Made by a program: the position numbers and the translations under genes. The notes under the pieces were generated by a model, which was given only the letters and a program-made list of their open reading frames with translations, was not told where the DNA came from and searched no databases. From assembly GCA_014380365.1 (NCBI GenBank), contig JACMJZ010000026.1:1-64000 (forward strand): a stretch of 64,000 nucleotides of DNA, in the 5' to 3' direction. Below, one piece after another: positions 10,345-62,521 of the stretch. This DNA is from Pyrinomonadaceae bacterium (GTDB lineage Bacteria; Acidobacteriota; Blastocatellia; Pyrinomonadales; Pyrinomonadaceae). The stretch's first letter is position 1; each line of letters starts with the position of its first letter.

Positions 10345-10456
10345 GAATTTCGGATTTCGGATTGCGAATATAGAATTGGTTTCCTGATTTCAAGCTCTTA
10401 AACACGATGTCTCACGACGATAAATTCGCAATCCGAAATTCGAAATTCGAAATTCA
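10345..10456. repeat. Word-type inverted repeat (GAAATTC/GGATTTC words)
   Basis: The left arm GAATTTCGGATTTCGGATTG (about 10345-10364) pairs with the right arm CAATCCGAAATTCGAAATTC (about 10430-10455). It fills the spacer between the second pseudopilin and the pilM-like gene. A close relative lies at 25485-25601. Confidence 0.85.
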
Positions 10457-22461: not shown

Positions 22462-22567
22462 CAGTTTCGAGTTTCGAGTTTTAAGTTTCGAGTTGGATTT
22501 CAATCGAGGAGTTCCCATTCCAAGTTCAGGCTTTCGAACTTGAAACTCGAAACTTGGAACTCAAAAC
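22462..22567. repeat. Word-type inverted repeat (TTTCGAGTT words) between pyrH and frr
   Basis: Left arm AGTTTCGAGTTTCGAGTTTT and right arm AACTTGAAACTCGAAACTTGG form a long hairpin. It may influence pyrH/frr transcript ends. Confidence 0.85.
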
Positions 22568-23319
22568 TATTTACCCATCCAAACTCGGGTGCCGACCCCG
22601 ACCTCGCCAGTCACGACCTTCATGATGTTGCCGGATTGTCGCATATTAAAAACAACGATCGGCAGACTGTTGTCCATGCAGAGTGAAATCGCCGACGCAT
22701 CCATCACCTTCAACTGCTGTTCCAACACTTGCTGGTAGGTAATTGAATCGTAACGTACCGCGGTCGAGTCCAGCATCGGATCCGCGTTGTAAACGCCTTC
22801 GACTTTTGTTGCCTTGAGAATTATGTCGGCCCTGATTTCCAGCGCGCGCAGCGCGGCGGCCGAATCGGTAGTGAAATAGGGGTTGCCGGTCCCGGCGGCG
22901 AAGATCACGATGCGTCCCTTCTCGAGATGCCGCACCGCCCGCCTTCTAATGAACGGCTCGGCTAACTGCGGGATGTCGATGGCCGACATCACGCGCGTGT
23001 TGACGTCGACTTTTTCCAACGCATCCTGGAGGACGACCGCGTTCATCACGGTCGCCAGCATGCCGATATAGTCGGCTGCGGACCGATCCATGTTGCCCGC
23101 GCTTTTAGAGACGCCGCGGAAAATGTTACCGCCGCCAACCACGACGGCCACCTGGACACCCAGCTCGTGAACCGCTTTCAATTCCTCGGCGACCCCGCGA
23201 GCGACATCAACGTCGATGCCATAGTTTTGCTCGCCCATCAGGGCTTCGCCGGAAATCTTCAGCAGCACCCGCCCGTAAGTTAATCCGGGATTCTCAGGAG
23301 TGGATTCTTCAGCGGTCAT
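22567..23319 (-). CDS. pyrH: UMP kinase
   Basis: Phosphorylates UMP to UDP in pyrimidine nucleotide synthesis. It is an amino-acid-kinase-fold protein with the canonical start ([12 protein letters not shown]), a glycine-rich loop ([13 protein letters not shown]), the nucleotide region ([19 protein letters not shown]) and the C-terminal [19 protein letters not shown]. The 250-residue length is slightly above E. coli PyrH because of a short N-terminal extension ([12 protein letters not shown]). It lies between tsf and frr as in many bacteria, with a repeat-rich spacer before it. Confidence 0.98.
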
Positions 23320-25484: not shown

Positions 25485-25601
25485 TAGAATTTCGGAATTC
25501 GGAGTGCGGATTTCGAATTTCTGTTGTCAACGTCCAGGACTGAGAGACCAAGCAGCTCGGTGGGCGAATTCCGCAATCCGAAATTCGAAATCCGAAATTC
25601 T
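25485..25601. repeat. Word-type inverted repeat (GAATTTCGGAATTC words)
   Basis: Left arm GAATTTCGGAATTCGGAGTG and right arm GAATTCCGCAATCCGAAATTC form a long hairpin ending at the rpsI stop codon. It is related to the copy at 10345-10456. Confidence 0.85.
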
Positions 25602-30952: not shown

Positions 30953-31531
30953 AGTTAAGTGGTTTGGTGTCAAAGTCCTGGACTTCGTTCACTACGCGGC
31001 TTGCCGCGCACAGTGCGGAAACCCTATGGCTTTTCGATCAGCCACCCGTCCCTAATCTTTCCTGAGGCTCAGTCTCAGGAAATGGGTTTCTATTGACCCG
31101 GCATCGGTAGGGCAAGCCTTACCGCACTGTGCGGCGGCAAGCCGCAAGCGCGTGTTGATAATTAGCGCGGCTCTAAGCGCGCCAACGGCGCGAAATATAA
31201 TAGCCAGGGGCAACCGCGTTTCGCGCGCTACCCCTGGATCAAGAATCCCCCTGAACACTTTTCGCGCTGAAGGCGCGAAAGGAATCTCACATTCCGCGCC
31301 TTCAGCGCTCCAATAGAAGTTCTCGCATTGGTTCCTGCGCCGTTGGCCAGGGCGGGATCCCCAGCCGAGCATCTCGGTTGGGGTGCGAGACTATTACATC
31401 TCGCGCCTTTGGAGCTTCAGACTAACCGCGCTTTCCCCTCGATTCTCGTCCTTTTGGCTGGTATCCTCTAGCTAGATCATAGACATTAATCTGTTTGAAA
31501 CCAGAAACGTGTTTGAACGGCCGGCTTAGTT
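30953..31531. other. Intergenic region packed with palindromes
   Basis: These 579 bases hold no supported gene. Visible hairpins are TTCCTGAGGCTCAGTCTCAGGAA (about 31060-31082), a long-range pair CGGCTTGCCGCGCACAGTGCGG with CCGCACTGTGCGGCGGCAAGCCG (about 30996-31144), GCGCGCCAACGGCGCG (about 31175) and GCGCTGAAGGCGCGAAAGGA with CGCGCCTTCAGCGC (about 31264-31308). They belong to the palindrome type also seen near 26.6, 30.4 and 33.2 kb. ORF 31052-31372 is an artefact of this region. Confidence 0.6.
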
Positions 31532-38655: not shown

Positions 38656-38973
38656 CGCGAAAGCGAAGCAATCAACAGTCAGCACTAACCGCGTAGCAAT
38701 TGAGACCGGTTGGGTCGGGTCGACAAATTCAGAACCGGGAGCGGTAGCGACCGGGGTCCGGATACAACGTCCAGGATCCGCACGGTGCACAAAGTTTAGA
38801 AAGGCCTAGTCCAACTTGATTGTTTTACTTGGTCGCTACCTCTCCCGGTTCTGAATTATTCTGCTCACTCAAGGAGCTTTGGTTTACCGATTCCGGTAAG
38901 GCAACAGCTTAGCTAATTGTTCTTGGCTTTTGGTGTAAAGCCATATTCATACGAACAGAAGGAGAGAATACTG
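38656..38973. other. Intergenic region containing a dispersed inverted repeat
   Basis: This 318-base gap consists largely of the repeat at 38724-38857; the remainder shows only the AAGGAG ribosome site of the methyltransferase gene near 38959-38964. Confidence 0.45.
38724..38857. repeat. Dispersed inverted repeat (ATTCAGAACCGGGAGCGGTAGCGACC)
   Basis: The left arm AAATTCAGAACCGGGAGCGG plus TAGCGACCGGGG is mirrored by GGTCGCTACCTCTCCCGGTT plus CTGAATT about 70 bases later. It is a variant of the CAGAACCxCCTGCGGTAGCGGGC family. Confidence 0.82.
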
Positions 38974-49138: not shown

Positions 49139-50824
49139 TTGAGCACCGCGGAACCTGCGTGTTACAGCACCCCTGAAGAATCAGGCTTGCGAGTCGAACC
49201 ACTTTCTTTCGATCGCATTCCCCACCAAACCCGCCTGTTCCTCGATTACTTACGTGACCCCACCGCGTTGCGCGAGTTCTATCCCGGAGCCGTACGTTTC
49301 CATCACGAACTCCCGGCCCGCGCTCCCGAAGTTTTAGCCGCCCACAGGACCGATCGAAATCTGTTGTGCGACGCGCTGCTCGATCTGAACACCTCATGGG
49401 GCGCAGGCGAAGAGACTCTCAAGAACATCCAGTTGCTGCGCGACGAAGATTCGGTGGCTGTCGTTTCTGGTCAGCAGGCCGGCTTGTTTTCCGGTCCGCT
49501 GTACACAATCTACAAAGCTCTCTCCGCCGTGAAGCTGGCGGGTTGTTTGACTCAACGCAAGACGAAGGCGGTCCCGGTGTTTTGGATCGCAACTGAAGAT
49601 CACGATTTCCCCGAGGTTGCGAAGGCGGAATTCATCGGACGCGATTGCAGACTGGCAAGCGTGGAGGTCTCTTCCGCCCTCCACCAAGAAGCTCAGCCGG
49701 TGGGCCGTGTTGTGATCGACGATTCCATTAATGGAGTCCTGGACAAGTTGTTCGAACTACTTCCGAGTTCTGAATTTACTCCGGATCTCGAAGTTTTGTT
49801 GCGCGACGCGTGGCGTCCCGGTCGCGGCTACGGCGAAGCATTCGCACGCATGATGACTTCATTGTTGGGTGGGCACGGCCTCGTCCTCCTCGATCCTCTC
49901 GATGCGAGACTTAAGGCCCTGGCCGCTCCCCTGTATGCGAGTGCGGCACTCCGCGCTCATGAAATCGCTACGGCTATCGAAGCGCGCAGCCGCAGGCTGG
50001 TGGAGGCTGGTTACCACGCCCAAGTGACGGCTTCCGAGAATTCGTTTCCATTATTCCTGCACGACGGCGATGGAGCACGTCATGCGGTAACTCGCACACC
50101 CGATGGGAAGTACTCGACGAAGCGCGACGAGCAGGCGTATACGGTTGAGGAATTGTCAGAAATGGCTCTGGCCCAGCCGGAGCGGTTCAGCCCGAACGTG
50201 ACGCTGCGTGCTGTAGTCCAGGATTATCTGTTGCCGACGATTGCTTACTATGGCGGCGCCGCCGAGGTCGCATATTTCGCGCAGACAGGCGAAGTCTATC
50301 GATTGCTTGAGAGGCCCATCACGCCGATTCTTCCGCGGTCCAGCCTGACGATGATTGAATCGCATACTGGTCGCGTGCTGGAGCGTTACGGTCTCTCGTT
50401 GGTGGACTTGTTTGCTGGTCAGGAGAATGTTCTCAAACGCGTAGTCGAAGAACATCTCGGAGCAGACACGGCAAAGTCTTTCGTAAGTACGGAGGAGACT
50501 GTGAATACTCAGCTCGACGCGCTACGTGAAAAACTGCGGAGCGTCGATCCCACCCTGGCTGATGCTCTGGAAACCGGCCGGCGGAAAATCAACCACCAAC
50601 TCGAGGGATTGCGCACGCGGTTTCATCGCGCGCAGATGGCGCGAGACGAAGCCGCTCAGCGGCAGCTGCAGCGTGCGTTTGAACAACTCTGTCCGAATAA
50701 GAACCTGCAGGAGCGCCACATCAACGTAACCTCTTTGCTGGCTCGTCACGGCCGCTACGTTATCGATTGGATCTACAACGCCATCAATATCGGCTCAGAT
50801 GAGCATCAGATCGTCTACCTCTAG
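49139..50824 (+). CDS. bshC: Bacillithiol biosynthesis cysteine-adding enzyme BshC
   Basis: Last enzyme of bacillithiol synthesis, joining cysteine to GlcN-malate. The start is a TTG at 49139 with an AGGAG site 9 bases upstream; the 561-residue length is normal. Family features include LLDLNTSWGAGEETLKNIQL, the nucleotide/active-site motif AVVSGQQAGLFSGPLYTIYK, VPVFWIATEDHDFPEVAKAE, and a long C-terminal coiled coil (LDALREKLRSVDPTLADALE through RHGRYVIDWIYNA). bshA and bshB are not in the window. The YpdA-like reductase at 40137 supports an active bacillithiol system. Confidence 0.93.
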   Translation: MSTAEPACYSTPEESGLRVEPLSFDRIPHQTRLFLDYLRDPTALREFYPGAVRFHHELPARAPEVLAAHRTDRNLLCDALLDLNTSWGAGEETLKNIQLLRDEDSVAVVSGQQAGLFSGPLYTIYKALSAVKLAGCLTQRKTKAVPVFWIATEDHDFPEVAKAEFIGRDCRLASVEVSSALHQEAQPVGRVVIDDSINGVLDKLFELLPSSEFTPDLEVLLRDAWRPGRGYGEAFARMMTSLLGGHGLVLLDPLDARLKALAAPLYASAALRAHEIATAIEARSRRLVEAGYHAQVTASENSFPLFLHDGDGARHAVTRTPDGKYSTKRDEQAYTVEELSEMALAQPERFSPNVTLRAVVQDYLLPTIAYYGGAAEVAYFAQTGEVYRLLERPITPILPRSSLTMIESHTGRVLERYGLSLVDLFAGQENVLKRVVEEHLGADTAKSFVSTEETVNTQLDALREKLRSVDPTLADALETGRRKINHQLEGLRTRFHRAQMARDEAAQRQLQRAFEQLCPNKNLQERHINVTSLLARHGRYVIDWIYNAINIGSDEHQIVYL

Positions 50825-50826
50825 AA

Positions 50827-50870
50827 GATGCCAGATGCTGGATGCCAGATGCTGGATGTTAGATGTCAGA
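50827..50870. repeat. Word-type repeat, left arm (GATGCTGGATGCCA)
   Basis: GATGCCAGATGCTGGATGCC with AGATGCTGGATGTTAGATGT. The complementary arm lies beyond the four-helix-bundle gene at 51250-51292, so the two bracket that gene. Confidence 0.85.
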
Positions 50871-50877
50871 AGGAACC

Positions 50878-51279
50878 GTGTCAGCAAAAGCACCGATTCG
50901 AAGCCATCGCGACCTGATCGTGTGGCAGAAGGCGATGGATCTGGTTGTAAACGTCTACGGCGCCACCGAAAGTTTTCCCAAAGCGGAAATGTACGGTTTG
51001 ACGAGTCAGATACGACGTGCGGTCACCTCAATACCGGCCAACATTGCTGAGGGACAAGGCAGACGGTTGTCGAAGGAATTTATTTACTTCCTTGCTAATT
51101 CCAGAGGATCGCTTCTGGAGCTTGATACACATTTAGAAGTGGCAACTCGACTCGGATTCCTCGAAGCGCCCAAACATGCCGAACTGCAGGGTCAACTGGA
51201 TGAGGTGGGACGCTTGCTCAACGGTCTCATGCGCTCAATAACCAATTCTAGCAGCCAGCATCTAACATCTAACAACTAG
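50878..51279 (+). CDS. Four-helix-bundle protein (S23/IVS-type, Avd-like fold)
   Basis: A 133-residue member of the four-helix-bundle family first known from intervening sequences in 23S rRNA genes. The typical text is IRSHRDLIVWQKAMDLVVNV, SQIRRAVTSIPANIAEGQGR and FIYFLANSRGSLLELDTHLE. The GTG at 50878 has an AGAAGGA site and is preferred; the ATG at 50863 lies within the flanking repeat. Function is unknown, although the fold is shared with Avd of diversity-generating retroelements; no reverse transcriptase is present here. The C-terminal residues (SSQHLTSNN) are encoded by the right repeat arm. Confidence 0.85.
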   Translation: MSAKAPIRSHRDLIVWQKAMDLVVNVYGATESFPKAEMYGLTSQIRRAVTSIPANIAEGQGRRLSKEFIYFLANSRGSLLELDTHLEVATRLGFLEAPKHAELQGQLDEVGRLLNGLMRSITNSSSQHLTSNN

Positions 51280-51292
51280 TATCTAGCATCTC
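51250..51292. repeat. Word-type repeat, right arm (CAGCATCTAACATC)
   Basis: CCAGCATCTAACATCTAACA and TAGTATCTAGCATCT are the complement of the left arm at 50827-50870. The gene between them ends inside this arm. Confidence 0.85.
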
Positions 51293-51298
51293 TTTCCA

Positions 51299-53314
51299 AT
51301 GTCTAAAATCCGACTCCTTCCCGATCACGTCGCCAACCAGATTGCCGCCGGGGAAGTTGTAGAACGTCCGGCTTCGGTTGCTAAGGAGCTTGTCGAAAAC
51401 GCGATCGACGCGGGCGCGACGCGCATTGCGATTGACGTTGAGGCGGGCGGGCGCAGACTTTTGAAAGTCTCTGACGATGGTGACGGCATGGTCAGGGACG
51501 ACGCCGTTATGGCCTTCGAGCGACATGCCACTTCCAAGATAGCCAAATCGGAGGACCTCAGTTCCATCAGCACGCTCGGCTTTCGCGGTGAAGCCCTGGC
51601 CTCAATTGCGTCGGTTGCGCGCGTCGAACTCACCACGAACACAGAAGAGGGTCCGGCAACTCGCGTCGTCATCGACGGCGGCAAGATGCGCGACGTGAAA
51701 GACGCGGCCCACCCGCGCGGAACCACGCTCATCATCCGCGATCTTTTTTTCAACGTCCCGGCGCGCCGAAAGTTCTTGCGCTCGGAGGCAACCGAAAGTT
51801 TTCACCTGACCAATCTGGTAACTCACTACGCGCTCGCCCACCCCGAAATCGCTTTCACACTCACTAACAATGGTCGCGAAGTCCTGCGCGTCGCCTCAGC
51901 TAAAGACTTGCGCGAACGTGCCTATCAAATCTTTGGTGCGGAGTTCCTGGATAATCTGCTCGAAGTCAGCGGCGGACACCAGAAGATTGCGCGCGTGAGC
52001 GGTTTTGTTTCCGCGCCGCGCGACCGGCGCACGTCGCGCGACGCGCAGTATCTGTTCGTCAATGGTCGCTTCGTCCGCGACCGTCTGATTTCGCGCGCGC
52101 TTTCCGAGGGCTATCGTGCCGTATTGCCGCACGGCGTTTATCCGGCAGCGCTGCTGTTCATCGAGACGCCGCTGGAGGAGGTGGATGTAAACGTCCATCC
52201 GGCCAAGACGGAAGTCAGGTTTCGCCGCGCCGCGGCAGTCGCCGACGCAGTGCGCGAATCGGTGCGTGCAGCCTTGGCCAGCGCGGGCCACGTTCGGCGT
52301 GAGACGAACGAACAGTCACCGGTTGCGGTTCTGGTAGATGAATCCGATTCTGCTGTTTTGGCCAACGCCGTGCCGGCCGCAATCGAGGCGCCGCTTAGCG
52401 CCATTCAACCCCGCATCGAATTCACCGCTTCGCCCATCGACGACGCTCCGCTCCAGTCGTCAGAACGGCCCGGGGTAGCGGGCGGGCCAGTATATGTCCA
52501 AAGTCCAAAATCCAAAGTCCAAAGTCCAACCTCCAATCTACGGGTTCAACCTCCTGCTGGGACCGCGGGCGTCCCGCCCGCAACGAGCGCGCAGCGCGAG
52601 AACGTACCTGCCCTCTCCCCGGACATCACCGAGGAAATATCAAGCGCGTCTGCGTCACCCGGCAGCCCATCCATGCAACTCCCGCCGCTCAACTCGGCTG
52701 ACAAGTACGCGCGCGAAGTCTCGGTCGAGTCTCTTTCCACCGACATCAGACCCCTCGGCCAGCTTGACGAAAGTTTCATCATCGCCACCGACAATGAAGG
52801 CCTGTTGCTAATCGATCAGCACGTAGCCCACGAACGCATCCTGTTCGACAAGTATCGCGCGCTCGAGTCCACTCGAATTGCCGAGTCGCAACATCTATTA
52901 ATTCCCGAGACTTTTGATCTCACACCCGCGCAGGCATCAGTATTCGATTCGGTTGCGAAGGAACTCGAAAACTACGGCTTCGAGCTTATGCGTTTGTCCG
53001 GCCGGACAGTGGCGATTAAGGCGACCCCGGCAGACTTGCCCCCCGGTGAAGCGCGCAACATGCTCGCCGAGATACTCGATACCGTTGATGCAGAGAAGAA
53101 GGGAAGTGCGCGAGAAACGTTGCGGGATGACATTGCCGCCTCGCTCGCCTGCCACGCGGCCATCAAAGTGAATATGCCGCTGACGCCCGAGAAGATGCGC
53201 TGGCTAATAGATCGTTTATTGCAGACTTCGTCGCCGACCACCTGTCCGCACGGCCGCCCCGTCATCCTCCGTCTCGCCACCCGCGACATTCTCAAAGGCT
53301 TCCACCGGATCTAG
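51299..53314 (+). CDS. mutL: DNA mismatch repair protein MutL (endonuclease-type), linker invaded by repeats
   Basis: Mismatch-repair ATPase that couples MutS to downstream steps. The GHKL ATPase domain (1-about 330) has ELVENAIDAGATRIAIDVE, SDDGDGM, LGFRGEALASIASVARV and RGTTLIIRDLFFNVPARRKF. The C-terminal dimerisation domain has DQHVAHERILFDKY, ACHAAIKVNMPL and CPHGRP, close to the DQHA(x)2E(x)4E endonuclease motif though the last Glu is Asp. The linker (about 385-445) is built partly from dispersed repeats in frame (VAGGPVYVQSPKSKVQSPTS then GTAGVPPATSAQRENV). Both conserved domains are intact. Confidence 0.96.
   Translation: MSKIRLLPDHVANQIAAGEVVERPASVAKELVENAIDAGATRIAIDVEAGGRRLLKVSDDGDGMVRDDAVMAFERHATSKIAKSEDLSSISTLGFRGEALASIASVARVELTTNTEEGPATRVVIDGGKMRDVKDAAHPRGTTLIIRDLFFNVPARRKFLRSEATESFHLTNLVTHYALAHPEIAFTLTNNGREVLRVASAKDLRERAYQIFGAEFLDNLLEVSGGHQKIARVSGFVSAPRDRRTSRDAQYLFVNGRFVRDRLISRALSEGYRAVLPHGVYPAALLFIETPLEEVDVNVHPAKTEVRFRRAAAVADAVRESVRAALASAGHVRRETNEQSPVAVLVDESDSAVLANAVPAAIEAPLSAIQPRIEFTASPIDDAPLQSSERPGVAGGPVYVQSPKSKVQSPTSNLRVQPPAGTAGVPPATSAQRENVPALSPDITEEISSASASPGSPSMQLPPLNSADKYAREVSVESLSTDIRPLGQLDESFIIATDNEGLLLIDQHVAHERILFDKYRALESTRIAESQHLLIPETFDLTPAQASVFDSVAKELENYGFELMRLSGRTVAIKATPADLPPGEARNMLAEILDTVDAEKKGSARETLRDDIAASLACHAAIKVNMPLTPEKMRWLIDRLLQTSSPTTCPHGRPVILRLATRDILKGFHRI
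52457..52602. repeat. Three dispersed repeats in frame within the mutL linker
   Basis: In order: GTCAGAACGGCCCGGGGTAG plus CGGGCGGGCCA (CAGAACC...GCGGGCGGG family, about 52458-52488); GTCCAAAGTCCAAAATCCAA-type words (about 52496-52535); and GGGACCGCGGGCGTCCCGCC plus CGCAACGAGCGCGCAGCGCG (about 52558-52598). All lie inside the region encoding the flexible linker. Confidence 0.88.
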
Positions 53315-62390: not shown

Positions 62391-62521
62391 GCAGAAGCCC
62401 GACCGTCAGGGAGGGCTCAAGTTTCAAGGCCGCAGCCACTTTTGAGAAAGCCCCAGCGCCTTATGAGAGCGATGGGGCTTTTGATTACTGAAGAACCCTC
62501 CCTGACGGTCGGGCTTTTGCC
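62391..62521. repeat. Hairpin repeat (AGCCCGACCGTCAGGGAGGGCTC family, copy 3)
   Basis: GCAGAAGCCCGACCGTCAGG plus GAGGGCTC pairs with GAACCCTCCCTGACGGTCGG plus GCTTTTGC. Between the arms lies a separate terminator hairpin. Confidence 0.9.
62447..62483. terminator. Bidirectional terminator between convergent genes
   Basis: AAAGCCCCAGCGC pairs with GCGATGGGGCTTTT, with T-runs on the plus strand and A-to-T on the minus strand. It sits between the convergent gene at 62015-62389 and the surface-protein gene ending at 62589. Confidence 0.78.

Follow-up and report, generated by a model that had tools for sequence, protein, structure and literature searches.

What is a single small gene doing between two complementary arrays of a heptanucleotide word, wedged into the spacer between bshC and mutL? 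In the window, the 64,000-nt stretch of Pyrinomonadaceae DNA analyzed here, this spacer is filled by a unit made of one reading frame and two arms. The gene belongs to PF05635, a common and conserved family with solved structures for which we know of no function; its members are oligomers and relatives of Avd.

The arms (Table 1) pair over 33 nt at 82% complementarity (50833-50865 with 51259-51291) and, in a second register, over 38 nt at 76% (50826-50863 with 51247-51284), and their local-alignment score of 36 was equalled in 0/200 dinucleotide shuffles, confirming the complementary word arms reported on both sides of the gene by the initial annotation. That description was also accurate in placing a start codon in the left arm and the last codons in the right one, since the ATG (50863) lies within the former and the stop (51277-51279) with the final codons within the latter; an alternative in-frame GTG (50878) falls just beyond the left arm. 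As RNA, the unit folds with its arms paired and closing it (z -2.3; 1/100 shuffles). The reading frame matches PF05635 over the full domain (E 8e-38, 129.3 bits, curated cut-off 33.8) as well as TIGR02436 (124.7 bits, cut-off 24), and its predicted structure is a four-helix bundle (pLDDT 94.7). The model matches 2GSC, a solved structure of the family, with weaker matches to Avd 4DWL (TM about 0.7) and DGR RNP structures. Downstream, the mutL coding region contains in-frame GTCCAAA words at 52494-52530; they encode VQSPKSKVQSPTSN, part of the linker that joins the MutL domains, and spacer words seem there to have entered coding sequence.

Table 1 The PF05635 unit with its neighbors, gene-less word hairpins, and two further PF05635 units.
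Feature	Position	Strand	Sequence	Basis or remark
Complete unit (gene and both arms)	50826-51291			Fills the bshC-mutL spacer
Left arm, GATGCYN 7-nt word array	50826..50870	+	AGATGCCAGATGCTGGATGCCAGATGCTGGATGTTAGATGTCAGA	Arm complementarity and shuffles
PF05635 23S_rRNA_IVP / TIGR02436 four-helix-bundle gene	50863..51279	+		Family profiles, structure model
Right arm, complementary word array	51247..51291	+	TCTAGCAGCCAGCATCTAACATCTAACAACTAGTATCTAGCATCT	Arm complementarity and shuffles
bshC, upstream neighbor	49139..50824	+		Stop at 50824; left arm starts 2 nt later
mutL, downstream neighbor	51299..53314	+		Start 8 nt past the right arm
Gene-less hairpin TTTCGAG	22470..22568	.		Word class and polarity as in the arms of own PF05635 copy L003
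Gene-less hairpin GTCCAAA	41167..41275	.		Word class as in PF05635 unit L061 of a relative
Gene-less hairpin GATTTCG	10345..10448	.		Without cognate PF05635 arm in the sample
Gene-less hairpin GATTTCG	25486..25601	.		Without cognate PF05635 arm in the sample
L149 PF05635 unit			AGTGCTGA	
L005 PF05635 unit			GTCGGCAGAC	

The gene-in-arms architecture is general. All nine PF05635 genes of the same genome are armed, with a word that differs from copy to copy, and conserved flanking arms, which had been proposed as a check, were found at nearly all homologs in this and related genomes (36/38 loci). Across phyla, a broad genome scan yielded 80 loci, a sample leaning to one subfamily because the full alignment was too diverse for such a scan; arms were detected at 56 of the 79 testable loci, versus 1/145 decoy placements 1.2 kb away. 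Three out of three cyanobacterial plasmid copies checked also have arms. Pooling all units, 130/159 are armed and 29/159 lack detectable arms; the word period is 7 nt in 98 of the 130 armed units, and the G-richer strand forms the 5' arm in 92%. Among control reading frames of the own genome, 16/822 are bracketed by some inverted repeat, with heptad words at just one, itself a PF05635 gene. The hairpin and arm census, covering 1.264 of the 4.98 Mb of this genome, revealed only four word-type arm pairs spanning more than 130 nt, three of which enclose the three PF05635 genes present there, the fourth being a word-array cluster without a gene of its own. In locus L112, two PF05635 genes (near 2395 and 3012) stand in close tandem, 73% identical and with different words.

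Judged by sequence comparison, arms and gene have been inherited and dispersed together. For non-syntenic pairs, defined as pairs without shared flank homology, the mean 5-mer cosine between words rose from 0.03 at less than 40% protein identity to 0.22 at 60-70%, 0.44 at 70-80% and 0.83 above 80%; in Mantel permutations this association was reached in 0/2000 cases overall, 0/1000 within the class alone and 0/1000 across phyla alone. Co-inheritance can produce such an association without recognition of the words by the protein. Moreover, two copies in the relative G004, L149 between gapA and pgk and L153 beside an efflux adaptor gene, are homologous from outer arm end to outer arm end and no further. 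Across copies, the reading frame evolves with a dN/dS of 0.06-0.13, indicating purifying selection that conserves the PF05635 protein. The units included no near-identical copies and showed no target-site duplication, the closest pair being 88% identical in amino acids, so that no recent jump has been caught, and PF05635 had 0 matches in 50,697 phage records, which argues that any spread does not proceed via the sampled phages. The suggestion of a minimal, transposase-free unit, mobile or passenger, proved largely right, supported by homology that stops at the arms of two non-syntenic copies and by words that track the protein clade at non-syntenic sites, with transposition itself as the presumed event behind this pattern.

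Spacers between operon genes were found to be occupied or empty depending on the relative. The sites examined closely all lie between protein genes, and bshC-mutL, pyrR-pyrB and gapA-pgk are co-directional pairs; at the latter two, three states occur among relatives: empty, hairpin only, and hairpin with gene. Between pyrR and pyrB, G000 and G012 carry orthologous PF05635 genes (81% identical), G002, G009 and G017 have gene-less hairpins of the same word class, and several other relatives show the pyrR terminator alone. In G036 this spacer contains an unrelated PF05635 gene (29% identical) with another word, and was thus reached independently. In unit L007, the pyrB start codon (1897) and first codons lie inside the right arm, so that a host gene seemingly takes its start from the element. 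In the gapA-pgk spacer, G004 and G012 contain the gene and G000 a hairpin whose word is similar, and other relatives are empty or carry other words. At bshC-mutL, G000 alone has the gene within its own family, 13 relatives show a hairpin that lacks the gene and is built from other words, and four show no hairpin; the other words in most relatives may reflect in-place word turnover or a site hotspot. Upstream of mutL in G036 lies a PF05635 gene that is 66% identical and flanked by the same GATGCTG words. In the bshC-mutL spacer of G022 (L224), a GTTCAAA hairpin is nested in the loop of a GTAGGCA hairpin. In a tree of the three flanking proteins, G004 pairs with G012, and G000 pairs with G006; recurrent loss of the gene from these sites and its recurrent gain would both be compatible with this topology. 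The empty sites anticipated in related genomes were thus found, and the copies upstream of mutL, pyrB and pgk are mostly armed, rather than being fixed syntenic homologs without arms as expected had the mobile-unit idea been wrong. The variation of words between copies, the gene-less hairpins sharing these words, and the occurrence in several phyla go beyond the initial annotation.

Short-loop word hairpins number 31 in the 1.264 Mb surveyed, and 20 of them share word and polarity with a PF05635 arm, either from this genome or from a different one, whereas none matches in reverse polarity. These gene-less hairpins look like non-autonomous members of the element family or its remnants. A simple dependence of hairpin density on PF05635 gene number was unsupported, since a relative with 17 genes had two word hairpins in about 180 kb, a small sample. 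The window also contains short-loop inverted repeats that are not of the 7-nt word type (30996-31145, 38726-38857 and 62391-62520; e.g. AATTCAGAACCGGGAGCGGTAGCGACC), perhaps REP-like families.

Several known systems invite comparison. In REPIN/RAYT systems, palindromic intergenic repeats, many of them gene-less, accompany a specific protein gene that these repeats also flank. The present element shares the gene-less palindromes (the 20/31 hairpins matching arms of own or related genomes), the same-repeat flanks of a protein gene, and a repeat sequence that follows the protein lineage. In contrast to REPIN/RAYT, the arms are variable-length tandem word arrays and not fixed REP sequences, and no Y1 (HUH) transposase was found between the repeats, where the reading frame matches PF05635 and, below cut-off, bAvd only. 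With the intervening sequences (IVSs) of Leptospira and Coxiella rRNA, which encode 23S_rRNA_IVP/S23p, the unit shares the gene family, a single reading frame, a similar size, and complementary flanks that form a stem around it. Such IVSs replace the tetraloops of rRNA helices, have complementary borders and are excised by RNase III (PMC4990558). Likewise, CPR bacteria carry 23S_rRNA_IVP in rRNA insertions, with ORF-containing and ORF-less insertions at the same sites (PMC11270868), which parallels the three states at the spacer sites. Unlike rRNA IVSs, however, the unit lies between bshC and mutL, and its kin occupy protein-operon spacers, with lineage-specific 7-nt word arrays, many copies per genome, and gene-less relatives. 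The element works like REPIN/RAYT systems and rRNA IVSs, yet departs from each in one defining property, having no Y1 domain and not residing in rRNA.

Other resemblances are more partial. PF05635 resembles Avd (PMC10053308), and our model has the fold of DGR Avd/bAvd, but the protein scores below the NCBIfam DivGenRetAVD (37.6 bits vs an equivalog cut-off of 80) and Pfam bAvd cut-offs, and the unit lacks a reverse transcriptase, a template and a variable repeat. As in MITEs, the unit is short, with terminal inverted repeats and without a transposase; unlike in MITEs, the terminal sequence differs among copies and the full unit contains a selected non-transposase gene. The heptanucleotide TAACTGA repeats of Beggiatoaceae are likewise intergenic tandem 7-mers near start codons, but are direct repeats for which no inverted pair around a gene is reported (PMC4679880).

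We consider it probable that the bshC-mutL unit belongs to a family of minimal mobile palindromic elements that is widespread and has PF05635 as the sole gene, whose protein would act on its own word hairpins; word recognition and strand transfer are inferred steps in this reading. Each unit consists of a loop with a single PF05635 gene, closed by complementary arrays of one word that is roughly 7 nt long and specific to the lineage. The protein may bind arms of the cognate word class in hairpin form, help them to spread or persist, and, by analogy with RAYT on REPINs, act on gene-less hairpins as well, strand transfer being left to host replication or repair or to a trans-acting enzyme. Among relatives G000-G038, the number of Y1_Tnp transposases correlates with that of PF05635 genes (rho 0.58) and Y1_Tnp is never absent from gene-rich genomes, making it a possible trans-acting partner, although overall mobile-element load alone may account for the correlation. 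The corresponding value for RVT_1 was 0.42; a reverse transcriptase acting in trans was provisionally set aside, as 9/24 genomes with at least four PF05635 genes lacked an RVT_1 match, several assemblies being incomplete. A bolder version, which we put forward tentatively, is a transposase-less mobile class in which arrays of a 7-nt word that undergoes concerted evolution across the two arms serve as terminal inverted repeats, and a word-specific PF05635 oligomer spreads units and gene-less hairpins across bacteria. Under either version, rRNA IVSs would be related elements that settled at the tips of rRNA hairpins, and under the bolder one a special case of the class.

Could the arms instead belong to the site, as host or independent spacer repeats, with the PF05635 gene a passenger entering their loops? 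The tip position of rRNA IVSs (PMC4990558), the nested two-word hairpins of G022 and the gene-less hairpins of 13 relatives at bshC-mutL are in line with this, but we regard it as unlikely, given that the homology of L149 and L153 takes in the arms, that words at non-syntenic sites go with the protein clade, which site ownership would not predict, and that empty sites without any hairpin occur. The arms could also be maintained as a stem in the RNA, serving to control operon transcripts or to have them processed by RNase III, as in rRNA IVSs, mobility then being incidental. The architecture is the same, the size is similar to the 428-nt Coxiella IVS that RNase III excises (PMC4990558), the transcript folds with its arms paired, and units lie between co-directional genes; differences between arms on the coding strand nevertheless showed no wobble bias for G.U pairs (158 compatible vs 151 not) and thus lend an RNA-stem role no support, and we hold this reading to be quite improbable. 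That ordinary spacer repeats merely happen to surround an ordinary small gene is barely conceivable: word hairpins are indeed common in this genome, but arms accompany most PF05635 genes in many phyla and are close to absent elsewhere, and the controls refute coincidence.

No description of word arms around PF05635 genes was found in the open literature to which the search was confined. The apparent movement of gene and arms between sites as a package points to a mobile element of a new, minimal sort and hints at what the PF05635 family does. If PF05635 genes are indeed the core of word-hairpin elements, the family would gain a testable job, the binding of its own word hairpin; rRNA intervening sequences, the retroelement protein Avd and intergenic heptamer repeats would be linked; and an explanation would be on offer for many unexplained 7-nt spacer hairpins.
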